The notes under the pieces were generated by a model. It saw nothing but the letters and a program-made list of their open reading frames with translations, had not been told where the DNA came from and did not search any database. The position numbers were made by a program, and so were the translations under genes. A DNA stretch of 56,439 bases from Caldilineaceae bacterium (GTDB lineage Bacteria; Chloroflexota; Anaerolineae; Caldilineales; Caldilineaceae). The stretch lies in NCBI GenBank assembly GCA_020433455.1, contig JAGRCP010000029.1:1-56439 (forward strand), written 5' to 3'. Shown piece after piece: positions 16,849 through 55,607 of this stretch. The first letter of the stretch is position 1. Every line of letters starts with the position of its first letter.

Positions 16849-16892
16849 GCAGGGAGCGCCCCTTGCGGGCGCCCGCAAGGGGCGCTCCCTGC
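16849..16892. terminator. Perfect 44-bp palindrome, likely bidirectional terminator/repeat
   Basis: The two 22-base halves meet at 16870/16871 without a loop and are exact complements (GCAGGGAGCGCCCC... against ...GGGGCGCTCCCTGC). It lies between the ends of the CotH gene and the convergent hypothetical gene. It contains the GGGAGCGCC core shared with the repeats near 9772 and 38307. No U-tract follows. Confidence 0.6.
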
Positions 16893-39922: not shown

Positions 39923-41095
39923 TTAGTTCGTGACGGACTGTTCGCCGTCCAGGGGCAGATTTACCCAACGGTGTTCCCGATGGGATAGTGCGGCGGCGTT
40001 AATAATTTCCTGCACCCGCGCGCTTTGGGCAAAATTTCCTTGATTTTCCTCACCCCCATCGGTAATTTCTTCCATGAAATTTTGTACCAGATTGCCGTAA
40101 AACGCGGTGCTCCACGGATCATCAGGCTGAGCGCCGGGGGCAAAGAAGCGTTCCGGAATCTCCAGCGGCACAAACTCTACAGCATCCGGCTTGGCGGCAT
40201 GCAGGGTCTGGATCACACCGAATTCCTCGACAAGTCGCACAATGAGCGCGCCTTCCGAACCATAGATGCGCGCTTCAATGCCCGGATAATTGCCGACCGT
40301 CACATAGCTGCTCTGCATGGAATAGAGCGCACCATTGGCGCATTCACCGATAAACATGTCAGCGTCATCGATGTTGATGCGCTCCCATTCGCTATCCAAA
40401 TTGGTGCGCCTGCGATAAGGGACCATATTTGCCAGGATACCCACTACCTGCGTCAGATCGCTATCCACCAATTCCAGGCCAATATCAATCGTGGGCGCTC
40501 CATAACCCTCCAGTGCGGAGACGTGTATCCCCTCCCGTGAAAAGTCCGTTCCCCAAGGCTCTTCGCCTTCGGGTTTTGTTTTGTGGATGCGCTTATCCAT
40601 AGGGTTATTCGGGTCCAACCACTGGCTGTTTTGCTCGTAGCCGTTGAAGATAAAGGGTTGGCCGATAAAGCCTTCCTTAACCAACTCAAACATATATTGC
40701 ACAGCAGGCGCATAGCGGAACGTCAGCCCGACCTTGGTCTTCAGTCCTTTGGATACCGCCAGCCGATGTGCACGCCAAACGTCCTGGTAACCGTGGCAGA
40801 CCGGCTTTTCCACCAGGCAATGCTTGCCTGCCTCCAGCACGGCAAAGACCAGGTCCTGATGGTCGCCTCGCGTAACGACATCGATAACGTCAATATCGTC
40901 ACGCGCCAGCATCTTCTCATAGTCGGTGACGAACTCCGGAATATCAAATTGGGCGGCCCGGCTTTCTCCCAACTCCCGATCCAGATCACAAAGCATGACC
41001 AAATCGCACAGGGGGGAACGAACGTAACCGGGCAAGTGGGCGGAAGCTGACCAACGGCCGGCTCCGATTACGCCAACGCGTAGGCGGTCTGACAT
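39923..41095 (-). CDS. Gfo/Idh/MocA family oxidoreductase (left arm)
   Basis: NAD(P)-dependent sugar-type dehydrogenase, 390 aa. The Rossmann motif is GVIGAGR (8-14). The EKP motif at 96-98 (LVEKPVC) carries the substrate lysine. The C-terminal domain provides the beta-sheet face that binds the sugar. It is the outermost gene of the left arm, 54 bases after a permease gene, so it probably oxidises or reduces an imported carbohydrate or cyclitol. It is not closely similar to the right-arm family member (52487-53479). Confidence 0.88.
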   Translation of the reverse strand: MSDRLRVGVIGAGRWSASAHLPGYVRSPLCDLVMLCDLDRELGESRAAQFDIPEFVTDYEKMLARDDIDVIDVVTRGDHQDLVFAVLEAGKHCLVEKPVCHGYQDVWRAHRLAVSKGLKTKVGLTFRYAPAVQYMFELVKEGFIGQPFIFNGYEQNSQWLDPNNPMDKRIHKTKPEGEEPWGTDFSREGIHVSALEGYGAPTIDIGLELVDSDLTQVVGILANMVPYRRRTNLDSEWERINIDDADMFIGECANGALYSMQSSYVTVGNYPGIEARIYGSEGALIVRLVEEFGVIQTLHAAKPDAVEFVPLEIPERFFAPGAQPDDPWSTAFYGNLVQNFMEEITDGGEENQGNFAQSARVQEIINAAALSHREHRWVNLPLDGEQSVTN

Positions 41096-41149
41096 GAGTT
41101 ATCTCCTTCTTGTGTAGAGTCAATCAGCAAAATGGTGATGGATAAGATC

Positions 41150-42037
41150 TTACCGTTGCGAGCGCGGCTCAAGCGCATCGCGCAGGCCGTCGCCTAATAG
41201 ATTGATGGAGAGCACGGCAAGCATAATGGCGAGTCCGGGGAACGTTGTAATCCATGGCGCGTGGCGGAGATAGCTGCGGCCTTCGCTCAGGATCAGCCCC
41301 CACTCGGGCGTAGGCGGCTTGGCGCCCAGACCCAGAAAACTCAAGGCGGCTCCGGCGATAATCGCACTCGCCACACCCAGCGTGGCAATGACAATGATCG
41401 CTCCCAGGATGTTGGGCAGAATATGGCGCAGGAGAATGCGTTGCGGCGGCGCGCCGGTCGCAACGGCGGCCTCTACGTAGGTAGTCGCTTTGATTTGAAG
41501 CACCATGCCTCGAGTTACCCGGGCGTAGGTGGGCGAGGCGGCAATGCCCACTGCAATCATCGCGTTGTAAAGGCTGGGTCCTAATACAGCGATAATGAAG
41601 AGCGCCAGAAGGATTCCCGGAAAGGCCAGGGTAAGATCCACCAGGCGCATAATTAACGTGTCGGTCCAACCGCCGAAGTAACCGGCCAACATGCCGCTCG
41701 TCACGCCCAGAAGCGCGGCAATGGTGACGGAGATAATACCCACGCTCAGGGATATGCGTCCGCCGTAGAGAATGCGGGTAAGCATATCCCGGCCAAAAGC
41801 ATCCGTTCCCAGCCAATACCGGGGGCCGGGCGGCTGTAGCCGCTCCGATGATACGATCTCGATGGGATCGTAACGGGTTATCCAGGGCGCAAGCAGCGTT
41901 AACGTGATGATAATGACAAGCAGCGCCAAACCTAACATGGCTCCGGGATTGCTGCGTAGGCGACGCAGAGCATCTTCCCACAGGGAGCGATGCTCTTCCG
42001 GCCCCATTGTCTCTTGGGGCAGAGATGGTTTACTCAT
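41150..42037 (-). CDS. Dpp/Opp-type ABC transporter permease C (left arm)
   Basis: Inner-membrane permease of 295 aa. The N-terminal helix (about 32-52) is followed by the OppC-like segment WLGTDAFGRDMLTRILYGGRISL (75-97). The ATPase-contact loop is near 195-215 (ATYVEAAVATGAPPQRILLRHILPN). The C-terminus has SFLGLGAKPPTPEWG. It overlaps the B permease by eight bases. It pairs with DppB to import peptides or oligosaccharides delivered by the adjacent lipoprotein. Confidence 0.92.
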   Translation of the reverse strand: MSKPSLPQETMGPEEHRSLWEDALRRLRSNPGAMLGLALLVIIITLTLLAPWITRYDPIEIVSSERLQPPGPRYWLGTDAFGRDMLTRILYGGRISLSVGIISVTIAALLGVTSGMLAGYFGGWTDTLIMRLVDLTLAFPGILLALFIIAVLGPSLYNAMIAVGIAASPTYARVTRGMVLQIKATTYVEAAVATGAPPQRILLRHILPNILGAIIVIATLGVASAIIAGAALSFLGLGAKPPTPEWGLILSEGRSYLRHAPWITTFPGLAIMLAVLSINLLGDGLRDALEPRSQR

Positions 42038-42959
42038 ATCGAATCCTCGGATCTAGCAGCGCGTAGGATAGATCAACCAGAATGTTGATCACGATGATGA
42101 GCAATGCGAGAATCAGGGTCAGCCCCTGAATCATCATGATGTCCTTATTCAGGATTGATTCGACATACATTTTGCCTACGCCCACGCGGGCGAAGATGGT
42201 TTCTGTAATGACGGCGCCGCTCAACAGACTGCCGAATTGAAGGCCGATGACGGTAATGGAGGGGATCAGGGCGTTGCGCAATGCATGGCGCAAGATGATT
42301 ATGCGGCCGCGTAACCCTTTGGCCCGTGCCGTACGAATATAGTCATTAGAGAGTACATCAAGCATCGTGCTGCGCACCAGGCGCGCCAAGGTGGCCGAAC
42401 CGAGCAGTCCCAGGGTCAACGCTGGTAAAATTAACCGGTCCAGGCTCCCCTGGCCCATGGGCGGCAGCCATTTGAGCGTCACGGAAAAAAGGAGAATTAG
42501 CAGCAAGCCCAGCCAGAAGACGGGCATAGAGACGCCTACCAGCGCCAGCGCCATAGCCAGGCTGTCGATCCATGTGTTGTGTTTCAGCGCGGCAAGGATA
42601 CCTAGCCCAAAGCCCAATACCAGGCTAATAAGCATGGCGCTTATCGCCAAACGGAGCGTATAGGGCAGCGCATCCAGTATCTGGGTGCGTACCGGCTGTC
42701 GATTGAAGAGGGATTCACCCATGTCGCCCCGAACCAGATTCCCTATGTATGCGGCGTATTGCTGGTACAGAGGTTTGTCCAGCCCCATTTCATGCCGCAC
42801 TTGCTCCAGCAATTCCGGCGTGCTGCGCTTCTCTCCCAGGAAAATTTCCGCCGGATCGCCGGGAATGAGTTGCAGCATCAGAAAAACCAGAATCGTCAGC
42901 GCAATCAGCGTGGGAATGGTGGCGAACAGTCGTATAAAGGCATAGCGGGTCATGGACAT
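42030..42959 (-). CDS. Dpp/Opp-type ABC transporter permease B (left arm)
   Basis: Permease of 309 aa with about six helices. The OppB N-terminus (MTRYAFIRLFATIPTL) and FLMLQLIPGDPAEIFLG are clear. The EAA loop is YIRTARAKGLRGRIIILRHALRN. ATG at 42959 has AGGA seven bases upstream and gives the usual OppB N-terminus. An in-frame ATG at 43025 would add an unrelated 22 residues. It lies about 140 bases after the binding-protein gene. Confidence 0.92.
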   Translation of the reverse strand: MSMTRYAFIRLFATIPTLIALTILVFLMLQLIPGDPAEIFLGEKRSTPELLEQVRHEMGLDKPLYQQYAAYIGNLVRGDMGESLFNRQPVRTQILDALPYTLRLAISAMLISLVLGFGLGILAALKHNTWIDSLAMALALVGVSMPVFWLGLLLILLFSVTLKWLPPMGQGSLDRLILPALTLGLLGSATLARLVRSTMLDVLSNDYIRTARAKGLRGRIIILRHALRNALIPSITVIGLQFGSLLSGAVITETIFARVGVGKMYVESILNKDIMMIQGLTLILALLIIVINILVDLSYALLDPRIRYE

Positions 42960-43096
42960 ATAGCATTCCTGACAGGCAATGAACGAATGGATAGGAGGCA
43001 GGCGGCAGGGCGGCTTGATGCGCATGGATCAAGCGCATCAAGCCGCGTATTGCAGATTCCTACCGCTAGCCAATTCGGGTCACAGGGAAGAACATA

Positions 43097-44752
43097 TTAT
43101 TGGCTAATCGTTGCGGCATAGAAGTAGGGCGTGTTGCCGCCGAGATAGTAAGTTATATTAGCCAAATCCTTACTGTGGGCGTAGAGGATTACGGGGTCAG
43201 CCCAGAACTCCATGATCGCCTCATCCTTCACCTTTTTTTGGATGTCGGAATAGAGTTCACAGCGGGCTGTCGGGTCGGCTTCCGCGGCTGCTGCATCGAG
43301 CATCGTATCCATTTCTTCGTTGATGTAGTTGTTGCGATTGGTGCCGCCTCCGGCGTTGCTGCTATGAAAGAAGATGCGCAGAATGTCGGGTTCTGTGCCT
43401 GTATCCCACCAGCCCTGGGTGTTATGCTGGCCGGAACGCACGGCATCGAAGTACCCGCTGCGACTCAGCCCGTTCAGCTCGACGTCGATGCCGATTTTAG
43501 CCATATTGTCCTTCAGGAAGGCGGCTTCTGCATTGCTGTTGCCTGCATCAGCACGGTAGTAATGGCCGATAACCAGCGGTTCGCCATCTTTCTCCCGGAT
43601 GCCGTCGCCGTTCGTGTCCACCCAACCGGCTTCTTCCAACGTCTGATTCGCTAAATCCAGATCGGTCGGATACATATCGCACAAACTCGCATCGTAGCAG
43701 AAGACGACGCTGGTCAGCGGACCGCAGGCCGGCGTGCCGAAGCCGTTGTAAACGGTATCAATCATGCCTTGTCGATCCATTGCCAGCTGCATAGCGCGGC
43801 GTACAGGCAATTCGCTGCTGGGGTACTGCTGCTGGTTGAACATAAGCGCCCAACCGGATCCCGGCTGAGGCAACTCCACGGTCTCGATATCCGGATTCTC
43901 GGACAAAGCAGCGAAATCTATCTCCGGCGTCTGATCCATAAAGTCAATCTCCCCGGTCTCCAGTGCAGCAGTGCGCGTAGACGGTTCTTCGATAAACTTA
44001 TAGATGAGGCGCTCTGCATTTGCCGGGCCGGTTTGGCCTGTCCATTCCGGTCCCCAGGCGTAATCGGGATTGCGTACCAGCACAATCTCCTGATTAAGAA
44101 TCATGGAGTCGAACATGAATGGCCCGGTACCGACAAATTCGGTGATCCCCCAATCCTCATTGCCGACCGCCTGCTGCGCTGTCGGCGAAACGGGTACCAG
44201 CGTCGTACCGGAGAGGTTGTCCAGGAAAGGAGCATAGCCGCTGTCGAAGCGGACAATCACCTCATAGTCGTTAACCACCTCGGTCTCTTTATACGGACCG
44301 ATGTTGCTGAAGGCGGATTGAGATTGGGTTTCCGGATCCACGATGCGATCAAATGTGAACTTGACGGCTTCGGCATTGAATGGCGTGCCGTCATGGAAGG
44401 TCACGTCATCGCGCAGTTTGAAGCGATATTCTGTCGCGTCTTCATTGATTTCCCACTCGGTTGCCAGACCCGGCGCGTAGACGCCCGGTTCCACTTGCCA
44501 GACTAATGGATCGGTCATGTGCAGGGTAATGTTGCCCACGCGGGAGAAAGTGGTGACATTGGGGTCCAGCCGGTCAAAGCCGGCCGGCATGCCTACAGTG
44601 ATGACGCCGCCCGTCGATGCGGCTGATTCCTCCCCGCCGGTTGCAGCATCATCCCCGGACGGTGATGCCGGCGCGGCGCACGCGGTCAACCCGATGACCA
44701 GCAGCAAGAGAAGTGCAGGCCAAAGTTTGGAACGCAAGGACAAACTGTACAT
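43097..44752 (-). CDS. Solute-binding lipoprotein, SBP_bac_5 family (left arm)
   Basis: A 551-aa extracytoplasmic binding protein. The signal peptide ends in LTAC with lipidated Cys25. A linker rich in Ala, Ser and Gly follows, then the family-5 fold beginning GGVITVGMPAGFDRLDPNV. KLRDDVTFHDGTPFNAEAVKF and AMQLAMDRQGMID are family hallmarks. It feeds the two permeases downstream. ATG at 44752 has AAAAGGAG eight bases upstream; an in-frame ATG at 44842 would precede an atypical leader. Ligands of this family include peptides, nickel and oligosaccharides; uronate-rich sugars are suggested only by the locus. Confidence 0.92.
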   Translation of the reverse strand: MYSLSLRSKLWPALLLLLVIGLTACAAPASPSGDDAATGGEESAASTGGVITVGMPAGFDRLDPNVTTFSRVGNITLHMTDPLVWQVEPGVYAPGLATEWEINEDATEYRFKLRDDVTFHDGTPFNAEAVKFTFDRIVDPETQSQSAFSNIGPYKETEVVNDYEVIVRFDSGYAPFLDNLSGTTLVPVSPTAQQAVGNEDWGITEFVGTGPFMFDSMILNQEIVLVRNPDYAWGPEWTGQTGPANAERLIYKFIEEPSTRTAALETGEIDFMDQTPEIDFAALSENPDIETVELPQPGSGWALMFNQQQYPSSELPVRRAMQLAMDRQGMIDTVYNGFGTPACGPLTSVVFCYDASLCDMYPTDLDLANQTLEEAGWVDTNGDGIREKDGEPLVIGHYYRADAGNSNAEAAFLKDNMAKIGIDVELNGLSRSGYFDAVRSGQHNTQGWWDTGTEPDILRIFFHSSNAGGGTNRNNYINEEMDTMLDAAAAEADPTARCELYSDIQKKVKDEAIMEFWADPVILYAHSKDLANITYYLGGNTPYFYAATISQ

Positions 44753-44838
44753 TATGTGTCTCCTTTTGGTTGGATAGAGCAGACGATAAGGTGAGTAACA
44801 GCAGTAAGGGACTGGGAACCGCAATGGGGAGCTTTTGC

Positions 44839-46539
44839 TCAAAAAATATCGCCACGGCTGCGCATGCTTTCCGCAACCAGGGCGACAGGAATAGAGCCGT
44901 AGGATAAAAATGTGTCGTGAAAGCGCCTGAGGCTAAAGCGAGCGCCGGCTTTGGCTTCAAGCTCGCGTCGCAGATCGTAAATTGCATCCGTGCCAAATAG
45001 GTACATCATGGCTGCGCCGGGAAACATGCTGTTTTTTACAGCTTCACTGTGGGCGGCGGCCGGACTCATTCCCGCCTGCTGTACGTAGAATGCAGCTGCC
45101 TCATCCAGCGTAAATTCTCCTCGATGAAGCTTGACGTCCACAATAGCCCGCGCGCTCATCCGCCGCCGCGTCTGCACCTCTGCATATTCTTCCAGCGGTG
45201 TGAGAAACCCGGCCTCGCGCATAAGTTCTGTGGCGTAACAGGCCCACCCCTCGGCCATGGACCCGCCGCAAAACATGGCGATCCGTGCTGAGCCGTCCAC
45301 CGCGGCCACGCGCCCAATCCTCGAGCGAGCGCGACAGGCATGCCAGTTCTGTATGTGATGGCCGATCGCGCCATGGTGGATCACGTGATTCAGCTTGATA
45401 ACACTGTCGTTATGCGCGCGCAGAAAGGCTTCCTGTTCTCCGGCGGATGTCGTATCGGGCAGCGGCGAAACAAGATATTGGTGTACGGACGGTTGGTTAA
45501 AAGCCGGCGGCGTTCGATAAAAGAGGAAGTACAGATGGGGGGCTGTCTTGCGTACCCAGGTCGGCCGCGGGACATATTCGATAGGGGAATCCGGCCACGT
45601 CAATAGGTCCTGTTCCGTTGCAAATGTTCGGCACGCCTGCCAATACGCTTCGTAACGCTCATAGTATTCTGCGCGTGTGGGGTGAAGGTTGGCCAGTTGC
45701 GCCAGAACATCCGCCGGATCGTGCATGCCCCAGACGCCGGCCTGGGAGCGAAGCGTATCATCGGCCTTGCGCAGCGCCTCTTGGGCATAGCGGATCATCT
45801 CATCGCCGGAATACGACAAACCATGCCCCTCGCGCATGAACAGGGTGAAAGCCTCTTCTCCGCAGCCGTATTCCGCCTCAGAGCTAACCGTGATTTCGTA
45901 GCGTAGGTCGTGGGCAAAGGCAGCAAACGCCGCACGCGCGCGCTTCGCCGCGTCATGGATGCGATCATCATCGATGTTATGCTCCGCAGCCAGGAGGTAG
46001 ATTCCGGTTCCCAAAAAATGATCCGCTCCCGCGCACTCATCCAGCGCGCGTTCCGCCCATGCTGCCGGCGCAAGCCGGATGGTGGAGCGTGCCTGGGCCA
46101 GAAAATCCGGAATCCGCCTCATGCGTTCTATAGCCGCCTCAAAGCGTTCCGACAAAGGCGCGTAGTCGCTGAGGAAGAGCGATAAGATACCAAAAATCGC
46201 CTCTCCTGCGTAGAGGGATGGATTGCCGCGCTGAAAGTGAGAAGAGAGCATCTCCCAAATTTGAATACGCAAGAAGCCGGTTGCCAGCCGGACATCGATC
46301 ATCTCAGTTTCGGAAGCGTCTGCAAGCACAAGTTCATCACCGCGCTGCAGGAGATAGCGCATGGACTCGACCGCGTCATCCAACCCTGCTTCTGAAAAAT
46401 CGGGCAATAGGCGATCATACTCATGTCGGCCGATAAAGGTGGCATCTATCGGTCTTTCCCGGTAATAAGCAGCGAAAAATGCGTCGAGCCATTGGGATAC
46501 GTTTGTTTGGGGTGCAAGAGGTTCACTTTGGCGGGACAT
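44839..46539 (-). CDS. DUF885-like protein with altered metal motif (left arm)
   Basis: A 566-aa, mostly helical protein. The region corresponding to the HExxPGHxxQ metal motif of DUF885 reads HHGAIGHHIQ (about residues 386-395), so the catalytic-type Glu is His. The later GSMAEGWACYATELM (about 425-440) keeps the downstream glutamate. The C-terminal part (YVQQAGMSPAAAHSEAVK, GTDAIYDLRRELEAKAG) fits the family. There is no signal peptide. It is the first gene of the left arm, with GGAG before its ATG, and it starts 194 bases from gntR. It could be an atypical metalloenzyme or a binding protein. Confidence 0.75.
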   Translation of the reverse strand: MSRQSEPLAPQTNVSQWLDAFFAAYYRERPIDATFIGRHEYDRLLPDFSEAGLDDAVESMRYLLQRGDELVLADASETEMIDVRLATGFLRIQIWEMLSSHFQRGNPSLYAGEAIFGILSLFLSDYAPLSERFEAAIERMRRIPDFLAQARSTIRLAPAAWAERALDECAGADHFLGTGIYLLAAEHNIDDDRIHDAAKRARAAFAAFAHDLRYEITVSSEAEYGCGEEAFTLFMREGHGLSYSGDEMIRYAQEALRKADDTLRSQAGVWGMHDPADVLAQLANLHPTRAEYYERYEAYWQACRTFATEQDLLTWPDSPIEYVPRPTWVRKTAPHLYFLFYRTPPAFNQPSVHQYLVSPLPDTTSAGEQEAFLRAHNDSVIKLNHVIHHGAIGHHIQNWHACRARSRIGRVAAVDGSARIAMFCGGSMAEGWACYATELMREAGFLTPLEEYAEVQTRRRMSARAIVDVKLHRGEFTLDEAAAFYVQQAGMSPAAAHSEAVKNSMFPGAAMMYLFGTDAIYDLRRELEAKAGARFSLRRFHDTFLSYGSIPVALVAESMRSRGDIF

Positions 46540-46606
46540 GCTTTTCTCCAGATTACAGTGGGTAGGCAGTTGGTTGAGCGGGGCGGGGCTAAGGAAAAAT
46601 AGCGTA

Positions 46607-46635
46607 TTGACAACCGGTCAAAGCAGTGATAGGGT
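46607..46635 (+). promoter_or_regulatory. Promoter of gntR and the right arm
   Basis: TTGACA (46607-46612), a 17-bp spacer and a weak TAGGGT (46630-46635). Initiation would fall at about 46642, inside the palindrome, so a bound regulator would block it. Confidence 0.45.
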
Positions 46636-46636
46636 A

Positions 46637-46662
46637 ATTATCGAAAATCGATTTTCGATAAT
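46637..46662. promoter_or_regulatory. Perfect 26-bp palindromic operator between the divergent arms
   Basis: The half site ATTATCGAAAATC is followed directly by its exact complement GATTTTCGATAAT, with the centre at 46649/46650. It lies between the divergent starts of the left arm (46539) and gntR (46733), and just downstream of a -10 box. GntR/FadR-type dimers bind such symmetric AT-rich sites. Control of both arms by the adjacent regulator is inferred. Confidence 0.75.
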
Positions 46663-46732
46663 CTAGCATATTTTCAAAAACTTGCCAATCGTAAAAAAAC
46701 AGGATTATCCCCCACCTAACAGAAGGCAAATT

Positions 46733-47425
46733 ATGGCGCATATCAACAGACTTCGCTTGGTAGATGATGTCCGACGTAATCTGGAGGAAGCAATTCTTTG
46801 CGGGGAGATGCGTCCGGGCGATCGTCTGCCCGTGGCCCAAGTCGCCGAGGAGTTCAGCGTAAGCCTGACGACCGTACGCGAGGCGCTTCTGATGCTGGAA
46901 AATCAGGGTTTGGTGGTTAACAAGCCCCGTCACGGTGCATTCGTCACCCGACTATCGGAGGAGGAGGCTCAGGAACTGTGCGAAGCGCGCGCCTTGTTGG
47001 AATCTTTTGCCGTCACGGTAGGATTTGAGCGCATCGACGCCCAGTTTCAGGAGCGTTTTATGGGCCTCGTAGGCGAAATGGCAGAGTGTGAATTGCCCCA
47101 AGACCTGCCAAAGCTTATTCGTACTGATCTGAAAATCCATCACGAAGTTATTTCATTGGCCGATTCGGCCCGCATCACGGAACTCTGGACCGGGCTCAAC
47201 GGCCAAATCGGCGCCCTCATTATGCGCGGCGTGGAGCAGCAAGGTTCAAAAATTAGGGACATTGTAGAATTTCACCGCACGCTGGGCGAGGCGCTTTTCT
47301 CCGAGGATATTAACCTCGCGCGCCAGGAGGTTGTGAGCCACTATCTGTTTAGCTGGAGTGAATATAGGTATTTTGCCACGGCGGTCATTCAGGTCGCCGA
47401 CGCAAACGTTGATTTTGTCTCCTGA
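46733..47425 (+). CDS. GntR family transcriptional regulator (FadR/FCD subfamily)
   Basis: A 230-aa DNA-binding regulator. The N-terminal winged helix spans about 5-72 (LEEAILCGEMRPGDRLPVAQVAEEFSVS, TTVREALLMLENQGLV). The C-terminal helical FCD ligand domain starts near 80 (EEEAQELCEARALLESFAV). This subfamily includes UxuR and ExuR, the hexuronate regulators, which fits the uxuA gene in the same operon. ATG at 46733 has AGAAGG upstream. The palindrome at 46637-46662 is the probable operator. Confidence 0.92.
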   Translation: MAHINRLRLVDDVRRNLEEAILCGEMRPGDRLPVAQVAEEFSVSLTTVREALLMLENQGLVVNKPRHGAFVTRLSEEEAQELCEARALLESFAVTVGFERIDAQFQERFMGLVGEMAECELPQDLPKLIRTDLKIHHEVISLADSARITELWTGLNGQIGALIMRGVEQQGSKIRDIVEFHRTLGEALFSEDINLARQEVVSHYLFSWSEYRYFATAVIQVADANVDFVS

Positions 47426-47450: not shown

Positions 47451-48644
47451 ATGCTTAGTCGTGATACGCTGGCATACGGGGAACGCATAGCCGCCGCTCT
47501 TCTCGGCGTAGATGCGCTTTATCGACGCGAAAGCGGCGATGAAGAAGGACTGGTTGTCCTCAATATGGCGGCAGACGAGCTAACGCCTGCGCTCTATGCT
47601 GATTACGATATTGCTGCGGCTTCATTTCTGGCGCTTCAGCGCGATGCGGCAGAATTGCCTGAGGCTGATCGACGGTGCTACTACGATCAGCTCTGCCATT
47701 CAACGTTGGCGTTCATCCGTTGGCGCACCCGCGGGATTCCGTTTGAGGAGCAGTTAACTGATTTTCTTCACGTACCCGCTGCGCCGGCCACGACAGAGGA
47801 GCTAACCGAACTGACCGAATCCGCCGGTGAGTTACTCGGTCGCATGGGGTATGCGGGGAATATCAGGGAACAATGCGCAGCCTGGGAGCAAAGCCAGCGG
47901 ACATCAGCTGATCAAGTTCCCGCTGTGGCGGATGCACTCCTCAGTGAGGCGTGGGATCGCACCGCCGCCGTGATGGAAATTCCCGCGCCCAAGCATGACG
48001 GCATGAAGGTTATCCCTGTAAGCGGCCAGGCTTTCAACGCGCGCTGCAACTACCTGCAACGCCGGGTTGAGTTGAATACCGATCCTGTCCTTACTCGCCC
48101 GGGATTGAAGCACCTTGCCGTTCATGAAGGGTATCCCGGTCATTACGTCCAATTCAAGATTCGGGAAGTGCGCTATCGGGAAGGTAAAGGGCCGGCCGAC
48201 AACCTCCTGTCAGTCGTGAATACCGCCAGTTCTTCACCCTTTGAGGGAATTGCGGATACAGGCATGGCCATGCTCAGTTGGATTGATGAGCACGATCAGG
48301 TGCAGATGCTTCTCAATCGTCACCGCGCCGGTATTGGTACGGCGGCTGCCTGGCAACTTCATGCGGAACAGCGCCCGGAGCGTGAAGTTGCGGCTTGGCT
48401 GAGTGAGCAGGCATTGGTGGGCGGCGACGGCTGGGTCAGAAACCGGATGCGCTTCATTGCTGCGCCGGCGCGGGCCGTTCTCATCTGGTCGTATTGGTGG
48501 GGCGAGCCGACGGTCACCCGCGTCTATGAAAAAGTTCCGTTCCATCAGCGCGCTGAGTTTTTTGATTACCTCTATGGCCGCATGCACTCGCTGGAAACAG
48601 TGGGCATGTTTTCCTCGGCCGCGGACTTCGCTCCGACAGGATAA
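47451..48644 (+). CDS. HExxPGH-motif protein, DUF885-like (right arm)
   Basis: A 397-aa protein that is probably a metal-dependent hydrolase. The motif HEGYPGHYVQ (residues 225-234) is complete, and SSPFEGIADTG near 265 supplies the downstream glutamate. It is shorter than usual DUF885 proteins and has no signal peptide. GAGGAAG lies before the ATG, 25 bases after gntR. It occupies the position that mirrors the 566-aa left-arm protein, but the two are only distantly alike. The substrate is unknown. Confidence 0.78.
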   Translation: MLSRDTLAYGERIAAALLGVDALYRRESGDEEGLVVLNMAADELTPALYADYDIAAASFLALQRDAAELPEADRRCYYDQLCHSTLAFIRWRTRGIPFEEQLTDFLHVPAAPATTEELTELTESAGELLGRMGYAGNIREQCAAWEQSQRTSADQVPAVADALLSEAWDRTAAVMEIPAPKHDGMKVIPVSGQAFNARCNYLQRRVELNTDPVLTRPGLKHLAVHEGYPGHYVQFKIREVRYREGKGPADNLLSVVNTASSSPFEGIADTGMAMLSWIDEHDQVQMLLNRHRAGIGTAAAWQLHAEQRPEREVAAWLSEQALVGGDGWVRNRMRFIAAPARAVLIWSYWWGEPTVTRVYEKVPFHQRAEFFDYLYGRMHSLETVGMFSSAADFAPTG

Positions 48645-48773: not shown

Positions 48774-50414
48774 ATGATTCGAATGAAGTCTGTACAATTT
48801 ACTTTGCTTATCGCGCTCCTTATGCTGATAAGCGCATGCGCTGCGCCGGCCACTCCCGGCGACGCGGCAGAGTCAGGTCAGACCGCATCAACAGAGAGCG
48901 GAGAGAAGGTTCTGCGCATCGCCTACGGCGCGGAGATCGACACCCTCAATGCCCTAACGAGCCAGAACCTAACCGATATCGAGATACTCATGGTAGAGGG
49001 TCTTATCATGAGCAACGATCAGAACACGTATATCCCGATACTGGCCAAGGAAATTCCCACGTTAGAGAATGGCGGCGTCGTTATGAACGACGACGGCTCC
49101 GTCACCATGACGTGGAACCTGCACGAAGGCGTCAAGTGGCATGACGGCGAAGAGTTCACCAGTGAAGATGTCTGCTTTACGTGGGATTTTATCGTTAGTG
49201 AAGCCGGCTCCGCGGTCTATAATCAGACTGAGTACCTGAACATTGAATCATGTGAAGCGCCGGATCCCTATACTGTCGTTTTTACGTGGAAAGCGCCCTA
49301 TGCGCCCTATGCGAGCCTCTTCGACACGATTCTGCCCAAGCATGTGCTGGAGGGGCAGGACGTCTTGACCTATGACGCCTATAATCGCAGCCCCCTGGGA
49401 ACCGGCCCGTTCAAATTTGTGGAATGGAAAACCGGCGAATACGTACAGGTGGAAAAGAACGAGGACTACTGGCGCGGCGATCCCTATCCCAACATAGACG
49501 GCATCATTGTCCAGTTTATCCCCGACCCCAACACCCGGGTGAATGCGCTGAAGGCGGGCGAGTATGATTTCGGTCAAATTCTGCCTAATCAGGTCAAAGA
49601 AGTGGAAGATCTGGCCGGTTATAAGGTAGAGCTGGTCAATACGAATGCCTGGGTTCACTTCGACCTCAATATTGCCAGCGAGCGAGGCGCCATGCTCTTC
49701 AGCGATCAGGCCGTGCGCCAGGCGCTCTTCCACGCCATTGATCGGGAAGCCATTGCCAGGGATCTCATGGAAGGCACTGTTGAGGTAGCCGATACCGGCA
49801 TCACGCCCAACAGCCCCTATCACAATTCGGATGTAATGAAGTACGACTTTAACCCTGAGATGGCCCGGCAAATGCTGGAAGAGGCCGGCTGGACCGACAG
49901 CGATGGCGACGGCATCCTTGATAAGGACGGCGAATCCTTCTCCTTTACCATCATTAACCGCAACAGCCGCCCCGAGCGTGTTGCCATTGCCCAGGTCATC
50001 CAGGCCAACTTAAAGGATATTGGCGTAGAGGTAACGTTCGAAAATCTGGAAAACGCCTCGTGGATCGAAAAATGGCTCTCGAAGGATTGGGAAGCTGTCG
50101 TCAGCGGTTGGATCATTCCGGCCGATCCGAGCCTGACCAGCCTCTATGCCTGTGACGCATCCAATAATTTCACCGGCTTCTGCTCTGACGAGTTGGATGC
50201 AGCTATGGAAGCATCAGACATGGTGTTGGAATTCAGCGACCGTAAGCCGCTGGTGGATGAAGTGCAGGCCATTCTGGCCGAGGAGGCTTGGTCACTGCCG
50301 CTCCATTATCTGGTGAACCCTTTCGTGTTGCGCGAGGATTTCCAAAACTTTAAGGGCAGCGGTACAAACCTGGGCAGTTATTGGAACAGCTACGAGTGGG
50401 ACTTTGGTCAGTAG
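48774..50414 (+). CDS. Solute-binding lipoprotein, SBP_bac_5 family (right arm)
   Basis: A 546-aa extracytoplasmic binding protein. The signal peptide ends LISAC with lipidated Cys22, followed by a polar linker. The fold begins VLRIAYGAEIDTLNAL; NLHEGVKWHDGEEFTSEDVCF and RQALFHAIDREAIARDL are family-5 hallmarks. TTAGGAG lies before the ATG. It shares only family-level similarity with the left-arm protein, so the two transporters likely prefer different ligands. Confidence 0.93.
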   Translation: MIRMKSVQFTLLIALLMLISACAAPATPGDAAESGQTASTESGEKVLRIAYGAEIDTLNALTSQNLTDIEILMVEGLIMSNDQNTYIPILAKEIPTLENGGVVMNDDGSVTMTWNLHEGVKWHDGEEFTSEDVCFTWDFIVSEAGSAVYNQTEYLNIESCEAPDPYTVVFTWKAPYAPYASLFDTILPKHVLEGQDVLTYDAYNRSPLGTGPFKFVEWKTGEYVQVEKNEDYWRGDPYPNIDGIIVQFIPDPNTRVNALKAGEYDFGQILPNQVKEVEDLAGYKVELVNTNAWVHFDLNIASERGAMLFSDQAVRQALFHAIDREAIARDLMEGTVEVADTGITPNSPYHNSDVMKYDFNPEMARQMLEEAGWTDSDGDGILDKDGESFSFTIINRNSRPERVAIAQVIQANLKDIGVEVTFENLENASWIEKWLSKDWEAVVSGWIIPADPSLTSLYACDASNNFTGFCSDELDAAMEASDMVLEFSDRKPLVDEVQAILAEEAWSLPLHYLVNPFVLREDFQNFKGSGTNLGSYWNSYEWDFGQ

Positions 50415-50501
50415 GAGGCGTTAAGCTGCTGCATCAGGCTATTGCGCCAGTGTGAAGCGGCGCTCTGCACGAAGCTGCTGCTGGAACAAATAGGGTAAGG
50501 G

Positions 50502-50558
50502 TTTGGCGGATATACGCAGACTTCTACAAATCTCTGGAGATCCGCGCTATCCGCCAAA
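50502..50558. repeat. 11-bp inverted repeat between binding-protein and permease genes
   Basis: TTTGGCGGATA (50502-50512) and TATCCGCCAAA (50548-50558) are exact complements 35 bases apart. They lie in the 207-base gap after the binding-protein gene. A stem-loop here could stabilise the upstream mRNA or attenuate the permease genes, as often seen in Opp operons. Confidence 0.5.
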
Positions 50559-50621
50559 TTCCTGCTCCGCTCTTCTGCCCCGATTTCTGCATTCCATCCG
50601 ATCATCTTGTGAAGAAATAAC

Positions 50622-51575
50622 ATGGGTCGCTACATACTACGCCGTCTCGTTCAGATGATCCCTCTTCTGCTGGGCATCTCTATTATTATCTTTCTGGTCA
50701 TCCAAGCTGCGCCTGGCGGACCGGAGACGGTCTTTCTGGGACAGGGACGCTTTGTTGACCCGGAAATTATGGAAAAGTACCGTCAGCGGCTAGGCCTGGA
50801 TCAACCCATCTATGTGCAATACTTGCGCTGGATCGGCGCCGCTCTGCGCGGCGATTTCGGCTATAGCTATACGGCTGCTCGCCCCGTCAGCCAGATGATT
50901 CTGGAACGCCTGCCGGCAACGCTGGAGCTTATGGCTGTGGGTTTTGTATTGGCGGCCATTATCGCTCTGCCGCTGGGCATTTACAGCGCAATTCGTCAGT
51001 ACAGCATTTTTGACTATTTGGGGACCAGCTTCTCCTTTTTGGGGATCGCCATGCCTGTTTTCTGGTTTGGTTTGATCCTGCAGCTCATCTTTGCCGTGCG
51101 GCTGGGATGGCTGCCTACCTCCGGCCGCATCACGGTAGGGAATACCGGGTTTGGCGATCAGGTCGCACACCTCATTCTTCCGGCTGTCGTTCTTTCCCTG
51201 CGTTATATTGCCGGGTGGTCCCGCTATATGCGCGCCAGCTTTCTGGGCGTGATTAATACCGACTATGTGCGAACCGCGCGCAGCAAGGGCCTATCAGAGC
51301 AAAGGGTGGCGCTGGTGCATGCCTTGAAGAATGCGGCCATCCCCGTCGTCTCCATCATGGCGCTGGACCTGGCCGGCCTTTTTTCCGGCGCAGTCATTAC
51401 CGAGACCATCTTTGCCTGGCCCGGCATTGGTCGCCTGTTTATCCAAGCCATGTTTGACCGGGACTATCCGCTGCTTATGGGCATCCTCATGCTTGGCTCG
51501 CTCATGGTCGTCTTTTTCAACCTGATTGCCGACATTATTTACGGCATCCTTGATCCGCGTATCACTTATGACTAA
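50622..51575 (+). CDS. Dpp/Opp-type ABC transporter permease B (right arm)
   Basis: Permease of 317 aa. MGRYILRRLVQMIPLLLG is the OppB-type start, and RFVDPEIMEKYRQRLGLDQPIYVQY is a typical periplasmic loop. The EAA loop is DYVRTARSKGLSEQRVALVHALKNAAIP. The C-terminus is IADIIYGILDPRITYD. It overlaps the C permease by eight bases. Confidence 0.93.
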   Translation: MGRYILRRLVQMIPLLLGISIIIFLVIQAAPGGPETVFLGQGRFVDPEIMEKYRQRLGLDQPIYVQYLRWIGAALRGDFGYSYTAARPVSQMILERLPATLELMAVGFVLAAIIALPLGIYSAIRQYSIFDYLGTSFSFLGIAMPVFWFGLILQLIFAVRLGWLPTSGRITVGNTGFGDQVAHLILPAVVLSLRYIAGWSRYMRASFLGVINTDYVRTARSKGLSEQRVALVHALKNAAIPVVSIMALDLAGLFSGAVITETIFAWPGIGRLFIQAMFDRDYPLLMGILMLGSLMVVFFNLIADIIYGILDPRITYD

Positions 51576-52467
51576 TTCCCGTCTCCAGCGTAAGCAACAG
51601 AAAGCGCTTCCAACCAAAGAACGTACCCAGAGCAGCATCATCTGGCGCAAATTCCGTCGTCATAAAGCGGCCATGGTTTCGGCGGCAGTGCTGCTCATTC
51701 TTACGACGATGGTCTTTCTGGCGCCATGGATTGCCCCGTATGATTTCGACGAGATCGACTTGCCCAATCGTCAGGAGCCGCCCAGCCTCCAGCATCCGCT
51801 GGGCACCGATGATTTGGGTCGCGATCTCTATACGCGCATCCTTTACGGCGGCCGCATCTCAATTACTATCGGTCTGTTTGCAGCGTTAGCCAGCACGCTA
51901 CTGGGAACATTTTTGGGCGCGCTGGCCGGCTTCTACGGCGGCGCGATTGATAACGCCATCATGCGCTTCACGGATATGGCCATCTCCGTTCCATCCCTTC
52001 CCTTGCTTATCGTGCTCAGCTCCTATTCCAGTGCAGCCATCCCCATCATGATTCTGATCATCGCATTATTGAGTTGGATGTCTACGGCCCGAGTGGTGCG
52101 GGGCGCGGTTCACTCTATCAAGCAGCAGGAGTTTGTCAATGCCGCCGCGTCTATCGGCGGGCGCAACGGTTATATCATCCTGCGCCACATTATTCCCAAT
52201 GTTATGGGGCCGGTGATCGTAGGCGCAACTCTGGGCGTAGGCGGGGCCATCATCATTGAAAGTTCTCTGAGCTTTCTGGGGCTGGGAATCTCTCCGCCCA
52301 CGCCCACATGGGGCAATATGCTGCAGGATTCTCAAGCGACAATGGCCAGTAAGCCATGGTTGACCATCTTCCCCGGTCTGGCAATTTTAATTACGGTTCT
52401 TTGTATCAATTTCCTGGGCGAAGGCCTGCATGATGCTTTGGATCCAACATTATCAAACCGCGGTTAG
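51568..52467 (+). CDS. Dpp/Opp-type ABC transporter permease C (right arm)
   Basis: Permease of 299 aa. An N-terminal basic stretch is followed by the first helix (AAMVSAAVLLILTTMVFLAPW). LGTDDLGRDLYTRILYGGRIS is the OppC signature. The EAA loop is EFVNAAASIGGRNGYIILRHIIPN, and SFLGLGISPPTPTWG closes the core. The ATG at 51568 lies inside the end of the B gene (ATGACTAA overlap). Confidence 0.93.
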   Translation: MTNSRLQRKQQKALPTKERTQSSIIWRKFRRHKAAMVSAAVLLILTTMVFLAPWIAPYDFDEIDLPNRQEPPSLQHPLGTDDLGRDLYTRILYGGRISITIGLFAALASTLLGTFLGALAGFYGGAIDNAIMRFTDMAISVPSLPLLIVLSSYSSAAIPIMILIIALLSWMSTARVVRGAVHSIKQQEFVNAAASIGGRNGYIILRHIIPNVMGPVIVGATLGVGGAIIIESSLSFLGLGISPPTPTWGNMLQDSQATMASKPWLTIFPGLAILITVLCINFLGEGLHDALDPTLSNRG

Positions 52468-52486
52468 ACGAAAGGAGTAACTCTTT

Positions 52487-53479
52487 ATGGCCACCGCTCT
52501 GCGCTGGGGCGTACTTAGCACCGCAAACATTGGACGTGCAGCCGTCATTCCCGCCATTCAGCAATCACATAACGGTGAAATGGTTGCTGTTGCGAGCCGC
52601 ACCATCGCCGCTGCCCAGGAATTTGCAGGGCGCATGAATATTCCTCGCTACTTCGGCAGCTATGAAGCCTTGCTGGCCTCAGATGAGGTCGACGCCGTCT
52701 ATATTCCCCTGCCTAACAGCCTGCATAAAGAATGGAGTATCCGCACTGCGCAGGCAGGCAAACATATCCTCTGTGAGAAGCCGCTGGCCCTCACCGCCGC
52801 GGAATGCGAGGAAATGGCCGCGGCTGCAGCTGCCAACGGCGTCTATCTCATGGAAGCTTTTATGTACCGCTTTCACCCGCGCATCGTTCGTGTTCAAGAG
52901 CTGCTGGACGCGAATGCCATCGGCGCTCAGCGCTTTATCTACGCGACTTTTACGTTCCGGCTAACCGACGAGAAGAATATTCGGTTTCAGTCGAATTTAG
53001 GCGGCGGCGCGCTGATGGATGTCGGCTGCTATTGCGTCAACGCCGCGCGTACCCTGGCCGGCCGCGAGCCCTGTCAGGTGCAGGCCAACGCCGTTTGGCA
53101 CAAAACCGGCGTGGATAGCCGTTTGGCCGGTCTTTTGGATTTTGGCGACGGGCTGATTGCCCAGTTCGATTGCGCCCTCACCATGGCTCGCCGGGAAGCT
53201 TTTCAGGTAGCGGGCGATGATGGTTATCTGGAAGTAGCCGACGCTTTCCTGCCTGGTACAAAAGATGTGATAATTGTAGAGCGGCATGGTCGGGATGCGC
53301 CGATCGTTCATCCTGTGACTGGCGTTGATGAATACCGACGCATGGTGGAGCATTTTAGCGATTCCGTACTGCACCAGCGTCCTTTGCAGTATGATGCGGC
53401 CGAAGCGGCGGCCAACATGCGCGTCATCGAGGCCCTCTACCGCTCTGCCCGTAACGGCGGCGCTCCGACAATGGTCTGA
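52487..53479 (+). CDS. Gfo/Idh/MocA family oxidoreductase (right arm)
   Basis: NAD(P)-dependent dehydrogenase of 330 aa. GVLSTANIGR (8-17) is the Rossmann loop, CEKPLAL (96-102) carries the catalytic-type lysine, and GGALMDVGCYCVN is the second conserved block. It resembles xylose/dihydrodiol dehydrogenase-type members. In an operon with mannonate dehydratase and no visible uxuB, it may supply the fructuronate/mannonate redox step. AAAGGAG precedes the ATG. Confidence 0.88.
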   Translation: MATALRWGVLSTANIGRAAVIPAIQQSHNGEMVAVASRTIAAAQEFAGRMNIPRYFGSYEALLASDEVDAVYIPLPNSLHKEWSIRTAQAGKHILCEKPLALTAAECEEMAAAAAANGVYLMEAFMYRFHPRIVRVQELLDANAIGAQRFIYATFTFRLTDEKNIRFQSNLGGGALMDVGCYCVNAARTLAGREPCQVQANAVWHKTGVDSRLAGLLDFGDGLIAQFDCALTMARREAFQVAGDDGYLEVADAFLPGTKDVIIVERHGRDAPIVHPVTGVDEYRRMVEHFSDSVLHQRPLQYDAAEAAANMRVIEALYRSARNGGAPTMV

Positions 53480-53532
53480 GCCATGATCCTTTTCCAACCG
53501 TCCAATCCCACTCCAAGACAGCTTATCTATCC

Positions 53533-54570
53533 ATGAACCATTCTTCTTCATCCTACAATCTTCTCATCGCCAGCTATCTGGAGCCCGAGCATGTCGCACG
53601 GATTCGCCAGACGAGCGATCGGCTAAACGTACTCTATGCGCCGGATTTACTGGCGCCGCCCCGCTATCCGGCCGACCATTTCGGGGGTCCCTTCCAGCGT
53701 ACGCCCGAGGAGGAAGCGGCCTGGCAGGGGTTACTGGCCCAGGCCGATATCCTGTTTGATTTTGACCACAGCCATCGGGACGATCTGCCCGAATTGGCCC
53801 CCCGCGTCTGCTGGATTCAGGCCACCAGCGCGGGAATCGGGCAGTTTGTCAAGCGCATGGGCTATGCTGAACGCATGCCTAATACCATTTTTACCACCGC
53901 CAGCGGCGTTCACGCTCGCCCCCTGGCAGAGTACTGCATGATGGCCATGCTTATGCACTACAAGCGCCTGCGCCATATTTTGGCGGAGCAGGAGGCCCAT
54001 CACTGGGAAGGCTATGCCGGGTCTGATCTGGAGGGGCGCACCCTGGCCGTCGTGGGGCTGGGACGCATCGGACGTGAGGTCGCCCGCATGGGGAAATGTC
54101 TGGGCATGCGGACTGTGGGAACACGCGCTCGGGGTGAAGATGAGAGTGTGGACCGCTTCTATCCGCCTCATGCGCTCCACGCCATGTTGGGGGAGGCGGA
54201 TGCGGTGGTGGCGATTGTTCCCCACACGCCGGAGACGGAGGGCATGTTCGATGCTGCGGCATTCAGCGCAATGAAGCCGGGCGCTTTCTTTATCAATATC
54301 GCACGCGGTCAGGTCGTTGACGAAGAGGCCCTCATATCCGCGCTGCGTTCCGGCCGCTTGAGCGGCGCGGCGCTGGACGTCTTTGCCACAGAACCCTTGC
54401 CCCCCGAAAGCCCGCTCTGGGACATGGAAAACGTGCTGGTCAGCTCTCATTCGGTCAGCAACAGCGATCGGGAAAACGCGCGGGTTACGGATCTTTTCTG
54501 CACGAACCTGCGGCGCTATCTGGCCGGCGAGCCGTTGGAAAACGTATTGGACACAGAGCGACTCTACTGA
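53533..54570 (+). CDS. D-2-hydroxyacid dehydrogenase family protein (right arm)
   Basis: NAD(P)-dependent oxidoreductase of 345 aa. GLGRIG (175-180) is the Rossmann motif. INIARGQVVDEEAL holds the catalytic Arg, LDVFATEPLPPE follows, and His is kept in SSHSVSN where most members have TPH. It is paralogous to the protein at 1533-2564. Encoded 14 bases before uxuA, it probably acts on a 2-oxo or 2-hydroxy sugar acid in the same pathway. Confidence 0.88.
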   Translation: MNHSSSSYNLLIASYLEPEHVARIRQTSDRLNVLYAPDLLAPPRYPADHFGGPFQRTPEEEAAWQGLLAQADILFDFDHSHRDDLPELAPRVCWIQATSAGIGQFVKRMGYAERMPNTIFTTASGVHARPLAEYCMMAMLMHYKRLRHILAEQEAHHWEGYAGSDLEGRTLAVVGLGRIGREVARMGKCLGMRTVGTRARGEDESVDRFYPPHALHAMLGEADAVVAIVPHTPETEGMFDAAAFSAMKPGAFFINIARGQVVDEEALISALRSGRLSGAALDVFATEPLPPESPLWDMENVLVSSHSVSNSDRENARVTDLFCTNLRRYLAGEPLENVLDTERLY

Positions 54571-54584
54571 TACGCTTTTGGGCT

Positions 54585-55607
54585 ATGCAACTCACATTTC
54601 GTTGGTTTGGCCATCGCGACCCCGCTTCCCTGGCCCGCATTCGCCAGATCCCCGGCGTTACCGGCATCGTCGCCGCGCTCTATGATGTGCCCCCCGGGCG
54701 GCTGCTTCCCCGGGCGCGCCTGCACGCGCTCAAGACGGAAATTGAAGCCGCGGGCTTGACCTTCACCGTGCTGGAGAGCATCCCCGTGCACGAAGACATC
54801 AAGCTGGGCCGGGCCGCCCGGGATGAACAGATCGACATCTACCGGCAGAATATTGCCCGGCTGGGCGAAGCGGGCATTGGCGTGCTCTGCTACAACTTTA
54901 TGCCACTCTTCGATTGGATGCGTACGGATCTGGCCTTCACCCTGGCCGACGGTTCCACAACCATGGCTTATGACGACCGTCAGCTGGCTCATATTGCCGA
55001 TCCGTGGGAGGCGGAGCTGCCGGCCTATTTCCCGCTGGACGACAGCCCCGAAAATCTCAAAGCAGCTTACCGCGCAATTGATGAGGAGGCGCTGTGGGCG
55101 AATCTGGCCTATTTTTTGGCGGGCGTGCTGCCTGTCGCCGAGGAAGCGGGCGTGCGCCTGGCGCTGCATCCTGACGATCCGCCCTGGTCCATCTTCGGAC
55201 TTCCCCGCATCATCACCGATGAGGCGGCGCTGGCACGCGTGCTGGCTCTTTCCGCCAGCCCCGCCCACGGCCTTACGTTTTGTACGGGATCATTGGGCGC
55301 GGACCCGCGCAATGATCTGCCCGCCATGGTTCGTCGCTTCGGCCCGCGCATTCACTTTGCCCACTGTCGCAACCTCAGGCGCACCGGCCCCAGGCAGTTC
55401 CACGAGACCGGACATCCCCGGGCTTGCGGGGATATAGACTTGCCAGCGGTCATGGCCGCGCTACGCGACGTGAATTTTACCGGTCCCCTGCGTCCCGATC
55501 ACGGACGCATGATCTGGGGTGAAACGGGCATCCCCGGTTACGGCCTCTACGATCGGGCATTGGGCGCAACCTATTTGCTGGGATTGTGGGAGGGACTGGG
55601 CGCCTGA
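54585..55607 (+). CDS. uxuA: Mannonate dehydratase
   Basis: It dehydrates D-mannonate to 2-dehydro-3-deoxy-D-gluconate in hexuronate breakdown. The protein has 340 aa and a TIM-barrel fold. Family blocks are clear: RWFGHRDPASLARIRQIPGV, IVAALYDVPPG, VLESIPVHEDIKLG, LALHPDDPPW, FCTGSLGADPRNDL, FAHCRNL and GYGLYDRALGATYLLGLWEGL, which include the metal-binding His and Cys. It is the last gene of the right arm. No kinase or aldolase for the product is in view. Confidence 0.95.
   Translation: MQLTFRWFGHRDPASLARIRQIPGVTGIVAALYDVPPGRLLPRARLHALKTEIEAAGLTFTVLESIPVHEDIKLGRAARDEQIDIYRQNIARLGEAGIGVLCYNFMPLFDWMRTDLAFTLADGSTTMAYDDRQLAHIADPWEAELPAYFPLDDSPENLKAAYRAIDEEALWANLAYFLAGVLPVAEEAGVRLALHPDDPPWSIFGLPRIITDEAALARVLALSASPAHGLTFCTGSLGADPRNDLPAMVRRFGPRIHFAHCRNLRRTGPRQFHETGHPRACGDIDLPAVMAALRDVNFTGPLRPDHGRMIWGETGIPGYGLYDRALGATYLLGLWEGLGA

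Follow-up and report, generated by a model that had tools for sequence, protein, structure and literature searches.

What is the function of a perfect 26-bp palindrome placed between two divergent transporter arms in a bacterial genome, and which protein would recognize it? In the window, the whole stretch of 56,439 nucleotides analysed here, such a palindrome lies between a DUF885 gene on the minus strand and a gene for a GntR/FCD regulator (gntR) on the plus strand, each heading an arm for a peptide-type ABC transporter. Judged from sequence, the palindrome is quite probably the operator of the adjacent GntR/FCD protein, which would repress its own gene, and probably silence the DUF885 arm as well, through a set of TCGA boxes. 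The site is ordinary in its role and unusual in its box and layout. It gives an otherwise uncharacterised regulator, and the two transporter arms around it, a concrete candidate operator present in a single copy.

A single-copy palindrome between two transporter arms

The palindrome (ATTATCGAAAATCGATTTTCGATAAT) occupies positions 46637–46662 and consists of two arms of exactly 13 bp (ATTATCGAAAATC and GATTTTCGATAAT) without interruption, as the initial annotation had read it. Its AT richness, also pointed out there, is borne out by a GC content of 0.23, compared with 41% in the surrounding 193-bp spacer (46540–46732) and 54–64% in 2-kb blocks of the window. Dinucleotide shuffling of the spacer, repeated 20,000 times, gives a longest perfect arm of 11 bp (once), and 40 shuffles of the whole window likewise reach 11 bp once, so the palindrome is beyond chance. 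The claim that its length stands out holds for the arm of 13, which exceeds all shuffles, but not for the window as a whole: a GC-rich perfect palindrome of 44 bp (arms of 22), resembling a terminator-type hairpin, is found at 16849–16892, and length alone is therefore not unique.

No second match to the palindrome with up to 3 mismatches is present in the window, and none in 399 other genomes; the inner 22 bp has no further match at the same tolerance in the 5,249,681 bases of its own genome that were searched. The exact half-site occurs in that genome only as the two arms, with three more places at 1 mismatch. The wide scatter that would have spoken against an operator is thus not seen, and the single occurrence marks the palindrome as a local element.

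On the plus strand, gntR (46733–47425) encodes a winged helix-turn-helix and an FCD domain (Pfam GntR 1.8e-17, FCD 7.7e-12). It is followed by a gene for a protein of 397 aa (47451–48644) with no Pfam family at E 0.001. This protein contains the motif HEGYPGHY, and its ortholog in the genome G007 (61% identity) adjoins the DUF885 ortholog. The rest of the plus arm, assigned by Pfam, spans 48774–55607 and comprises SBP_bac_5 (48774–50414), DppB-like (50622–51575), DppC-like (51526–52467), Gfo/Idh/MocA (52487–53479) and 2-hydroxyacid dehydrogenase (53533–54570) genes and, at its end, UxuA of the D-mannonate dehydratase family (54585–55607). The SBP_bac_5 and DppB-like genes follow gaps of 129 and 207 bp, respectively, and the arm is assumed to form one transcript with gntR. 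On the minus strand, the DUF885 gene (44839–46539; Pfam 1.8e-61) is followed within 39923–44842 by SBP_bac_5 (43097–44842), DppB-like (42030–43025), DppC-like (41150–42037) and Gfo/Idh/MocA (39923–41095) genes, likewise by Pfam. Shuffled sequences contain at least as many terminator-like and promoter-like matches as the region does. A permease and binding-protein set is present in each arm (39923–44842 and 48774–52467), with no ATPase gene among the arm ORFs examined; the ATPase for both may come from elsewhere.

Predicted facing promoters and the proposed mechanism

Upstream of gntR, a proposed promoter is found on the plus strand at 46607–46635, with TTGACA (46607–46612) and TAGGGT (46630–46635) separated by 17 bp. 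Its score is reached by 0.4% of 1000 shuffles; a stricter promoter scan did not call it, because the -10 element TAGGGT matches consensus at 3 of 6 positions. This -10 element ends 1 bp before the palindrome. On the minus strand, a consensus scan gives a possible promoter of the DUF885 arm at 46660–46688 (9/12), with TTGGCA (46688–46683), a 17-bp spacer and TAGATT (46665–46660), overlapping the far end of the palindrome. The match is weak, with 0.5 such expected by chance in the stretch. Across 46480–46800, the sole promoter-like match called is on the minus strand and overlaps the palindrome. If both promoters are used, the usual spacing would place their starts at about 46642 (plus) and 46653 (minus), facing each other inside the palindrome. 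The distance from the symmetry axis to the start of gntR is 83.5 bp and to that of the DUF885 gene 110.5 bp, and the palindrome edge is 98 bp from the minus-strand gene. The promoter matches thus agree with the placement given in the initial annotation, between the divergent arms, beside gntR and over the expected transcription start.

In the proposed mechanism, GntR dimers on the TCGA boxes would cover the -10/+1 region of gntR. Since the palindrome sits on the predicted gntR start, 1 bp past the -10 element, bound GntR would block RNA polymerase, and a role as autorepression operator is likely. The opposing promoter match ends on the other edge of the palindrome, so the same complex would silence the DUF885-transporter arm, with one operator serving between two face-to-face promoters. 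From its position and the weak second promoter match, sharing with the minus arm is probable. In E. coli, the bio operator is a single palindrome over the face-to-face bioA and bioBFCD promoters, with BirA as regulator. The present arrangement resembles it in having one palindromic operator for two opposed promoters, though the starts here are only predicted and GntR is unrelated to BirA.

The layout also resembles the divergon operators of the FadR subfamily as described in the consulted part of PMC4494728, being an AT-rich palindrome about midway between two operons that diverge, with the regulator gene in one of them. According to the same part, a single FadR-type or HutC-type site in a divergon is usually placed centrally and controls both operons. 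The window site lies slightly nearer to the regulator gene, the reverse of the average given there (PMC4494728).

TCGA boxes repeated every 7 bp

The internal order of the palindrome, absent from the initial annotation, consists of three TCGA boxes at 46641–46644, 46648–46651 and 46655–46658, placed at a 7-bp step with the middle box on the symmetry axis. The step is equal to the centre-to-centre step of the half-sites in the FadR-type motif TKGT-N3-ACMA (PMC4494728, in the part consulted), for which steps of 7 bp (N3) or 6 bp (N2) apply. Recognition would therefore proceed through boxes 7 bp apart, with boxes 1 and 2, or 2 and 3, each forming one site of the usual geometry. Dimers may thus sit on either pair, and one or two of them could be bound. 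The boxes themselves differ from the TKGT/ACMA described in that source. They read TCGA, three equal copies are present, and the axis falls inside the middle one; the first T, the third G and their complements agree, whereas the inner T/A differs, C stands in place of K, and the GT/AC core is missing. The consulted part of Suvorova et al. 2015 (PMC4494728) describes GntR sites with additional boxes 7–12 nt away from the centre.

The three-box pattern TCGANNNTCGANNNTCGA occurs once in the genome, at the 46637–46662 site. ATCGANNNTCGAT has two copies outside the palindrome. One, at L094:3765–3777 (C157:120764–120776), is a single ATCGATCTTCGAT; a DapA-like gene begins 40 bp downstream of it, and an ORF reading places an IclR-like regulator nearby. 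This copy could be chance or a second target. The other copy lies inside listed ORFs of the locus L095. Among six related places in the genome, the three with 1 mismatch included, five lie in ORFs and one between same-strand genes. As further operators, the two copies and the six places were treated as chance.

The GntR/FCD protein and its candidate effector

The local regulator has an N-terminal GntR winged helix-turn-helix, starting at residue 11, and a C-terminal FCD domain, both above the Pfam cut-offs, which places it in the GntR/FCD (FadR) subfamily. The metal-site residues of the FCD domain, D132, H136, H181 and H203, are present in the order Asn/Asp-x3-His, His, His. In an alignment of 74 rows, three of which repeat others, the histidines are conserved in 74, 73 and 64 rows and Asp in 57. 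Metal-site residues of the same pattern are named for an FCD protein in the consulted part of PMC7674646. The pattern is compatible with a carboxylate effector, and a carboxylate metabolite of the pathway may release the operator. Mannonate, fructuronate and glucuronate are candidate effectors because uxuA is the last gene of the plus arm and the FCD metal-site pattern is conserved.

At position 45, Arg is found in 46 of the 74 aligned rows, Leu in the local protein and, by the same alignment count, Lys in the homolog from the genome G124. The equivalent residue presumably contacts DNA in FadR. Leu45 can be taken as a lead for the changed TCGA box, and a recognition helix changed in this way together with a non-consensus box makes a testable pairing.

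A 7-bp signature upstream of GntR genes

No close ortholog of the local GntR was found (best identity 36%, with two partial matches besides), and the question was therefore put to the GntR family. The set comprised 116 regions of up to 250 bp upstream of GntR genes, with the start codon taken as the nearest ATG, GTG or TTG upstream of the match. Of these, 56 are the loci L002–L057, the window's own included, and the other 60 were picked among the matches listed, with weaker listed matches left out. Some regions are related to each other, and a few precede genes with long open frames that may not encode FCD proteins.

A palindrome score of at least 8 is reached in 31 of the 116 regions, the G124 site among them, against 22 of 580 shuffled regions (3.8%); the remaining 85 regions have no strong palindrome. 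When best internal periods from 5 to 12 bp are compared, 16 of the 23 AT-rich palindromes (GC at most 0.5) have 7 bp, or 15 of 22 without the window's own site. In 1000 shuffles that keep the symmetry, the mean is 2.7 and the maximum 8. Other score cut-offs give 17/31 (cut-off 7), 16/24 (7.5), 14/20 (9) and 9/13 (10). Control AT-rich palindromes elsewhere in the same loci have a 7-bp period in 4 of 30 cases (Fisher p 3.5e-5; 6.5e-5 without the window). For these controls, the loci L205–L227, which had been retrieved through TCGA patterns, were excluded, any copy of a test palindrome was masked, and the initial 31 were reduced to 30 by dropping a site in the genome G049 that serves as a test case. 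Strong phasing, a lag-7 identity of at least 0.55, is seen in 12 of 23 GntR palindromes and in 1 of 30 controls. Since related pairs occur (L144 and L145 share a core, L129 and L142 share boxes), the 16 cases amount to about 14 independent ones. A strict lag-7 test on whole regions gave 1 of 56 and no enrichment, in a set whose 23 minus-strand loci were taken from the wrong side of the gene.

Many of the phased palindromes also lie at predicted promoters. In 10 of the 16 phased and 12 of the 23 AT-rich palindromes, a promoter match overlaps or shortly precedes the palindrome with a score that at most 1% of shuffles attain, and the other 6 phased ones have no good match in the place searched. 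The gap of 1 bp between the -10 element and the palindrome recurs at L033, whose GntR is 36% identical, and before the DUF885 ortholog of G049. For most other GntR genes that have a phased palindrome, its boxes differ from TCGA. A 7-bp step within an AT-rich palindrome that lies on the gntR promoter could serve as a rule for finding GntR operators without orthologs in a little-studied phylum.

Strong palindromes whose best period is not 7 bp are found upstream of GntR genes at L017, L165 and L188, those of L017 and L188 on good promoter matches. A second operator layout may exist.

TCGA ladders and repeats in relatives

Upstream of the G124 gene, whose GntR protein is 34% identical to the local one, TCGATAGTCGAAAGTCGACTATCGA contains four TCGA boxes in 7-bp steps and precedes the frame's first ATG by 21 bp. 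The 250-bp cut had removed the promoter region there, and the longer sequence places a promoter match 9 bp before the palindrome. Three-box matches number 27 in G124, most of them in tandem TCGACCC arrays, which makes its GntR site less telling than one in an array-free genome, although this site is the sole match there of a more AT-rich four-box pattern. In the window's own genome, neither four-box matches nor TCGA heptamer arrays are found.

Across 400 genomes, 17 hold four-box matches, with 72 in G123 and 19 in G310. One locus was taken from each four-box genome, and in many of these loci heptamers are arrayed in tandem next to unrelated genes. On this count, the idea that a TCGA ladder proves a GntR site, whatever the genome, was rejected. 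As the loci L205–L221 show, some genomes of the phylum are rich in 7-bp tandem repeats that contain TCGA, some of which enter reading frames as repeated SNFE-like or IRYS-like peptides. Heptamer repeats of this type are tandem and occur at many places per genome; the window site has neither property.

Together, the phased AT-rich palindromes of related GntR genes and the G124 ladder support the part of the initial annotation that read the palindrome as a GntR operator, while its extension to an operator shared by both arms is held as probable only.

Alternative explanations

The palindrome might be a GntR operator serving only the gntR operon, with the minus arm under a promoter and control of its own. 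The plus-strand promoter match is far better than the minus-strand one, and many comparison sites lie on the promoter of the regulator itself. This narrower role is nevertheless unlikely, given that the one promoter-like call around the palindrome is on the minus strand, that transcripts starting within the 98 bp before the minus-strand gene would begin near the bound complex, and that a similar palindrome in G049 lies on the promoter of a DUF885 ortholog. An operator for a regulator acting from elsewhere, for instance of the LacI type, would account for a box that departs from the FadR-type consensus and for an axis on CG, a central CG being frequent in LacI-type sites. It has a small probability: no other regulator gene is present among the ORFs of the two arms, the palindrome is single-copy in the genome, and the 7-bp step marks the sites of GntR genes in the comparison set.

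TCGA is its own complement, so heptamer arrays built on it, which are frequent in some genomes of the phylum, can be palindromic, and the site could be a remnant of such repeats with no regulatory role. This is very improbable for an element whose arms are perfectly symmetrical instead of tandem copies, which sits exactly on a promoter match, and whose genome holds no four-box match and only one three-box match; moreover, most of the phased palindromes at other GntR genes are made of other boxes. The RNA would fold into an 11-pair hairpin (-8.3 kcal/mol, z -3.4), as expected of an RNA hairpin or a bidirectional terminator. Any perfect palindrome folds, however, and with 3 G+C of 13 per arm the element lacks the G+C-rich stem and T run of an intrinsic terminator; none is called in 46480–46800. 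If transcription begins at about 46642 and 46653, each transcript would lack part of the hairpin, and a role in RNA can hardly be expected. The GntR operator remains the preferred reading.

Comparison with known GntR operators

NanR of E. coli, acting on (GGTATA)3, offers a parallel in that a GntR protein recognizes three neighbouring boxes overlapping the promoter region, on which several dimers can crowd (PMC8012715, in the part consulted). The NanR boxes are direct repeats, whereas those of the window are inverted and self-complementary, and the 32-residue N-terminal extension that NanR needs, according to the same part of PMC8012715, is missing from the local GntR. The window site is thus not of the NanR type. 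DgoR of E. coli, in the consulted part of PMC7674646, is likewise an FCD regulator of sugar-acid genes encoded first in its operon, binds inverted repeats at its own promoter and carries metal in the FCD pocket; it differs in having two separate inverted repeats and a known ligand. A literature search on GntR operators with overlapping palindromes found no paper, and the 7-bp ladder is absent from the titles and abstract openings listed for searches on half-sites and on Chloroflexi.

A broader proposal, offered tentatively and open to considerable doubt, is that GntR/FCD regulators of the phylum use a ladder operator on the -10/+1 region of the promoter, built of boxes, self-complementary or inverted, that recur strictly every 7 bp (three here, four in G124, five in G049). 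The box number would then determine how many overlapping registers are open to the dimers. If so, the window would hold the smallest odd ladder, with two dimers sharing or competing for the central box, and such competition could make a switch between the two opposed promoters.

Gene arrangement in relatives

In G049, a gene cluster contains homologs from both arms at 61–83% identity together with a GntR gene at 29%. Its DUF885 ortholog (57%) is preceded by a different palindrome of 33 bp, ATCCTATATCCTCTAGGATAGAGGATATAGGAT, phased at 7 bp and placed 1 bp after TTGACA-17-TATCAT; in comparison with the window site, the sequence is another and the step and placement are equal. In G007, the two genes of the DUF885 side stand next to each other in one direction, close to a contig end. 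At L126, L127 (G049) and L128 (G007), the gene set runs in one direction and includes orthologs of either or both arms. These arrangements mean that neither G049 nor G007 retains the divergon as such, and the two arms look like modules reshuffled among relatives.
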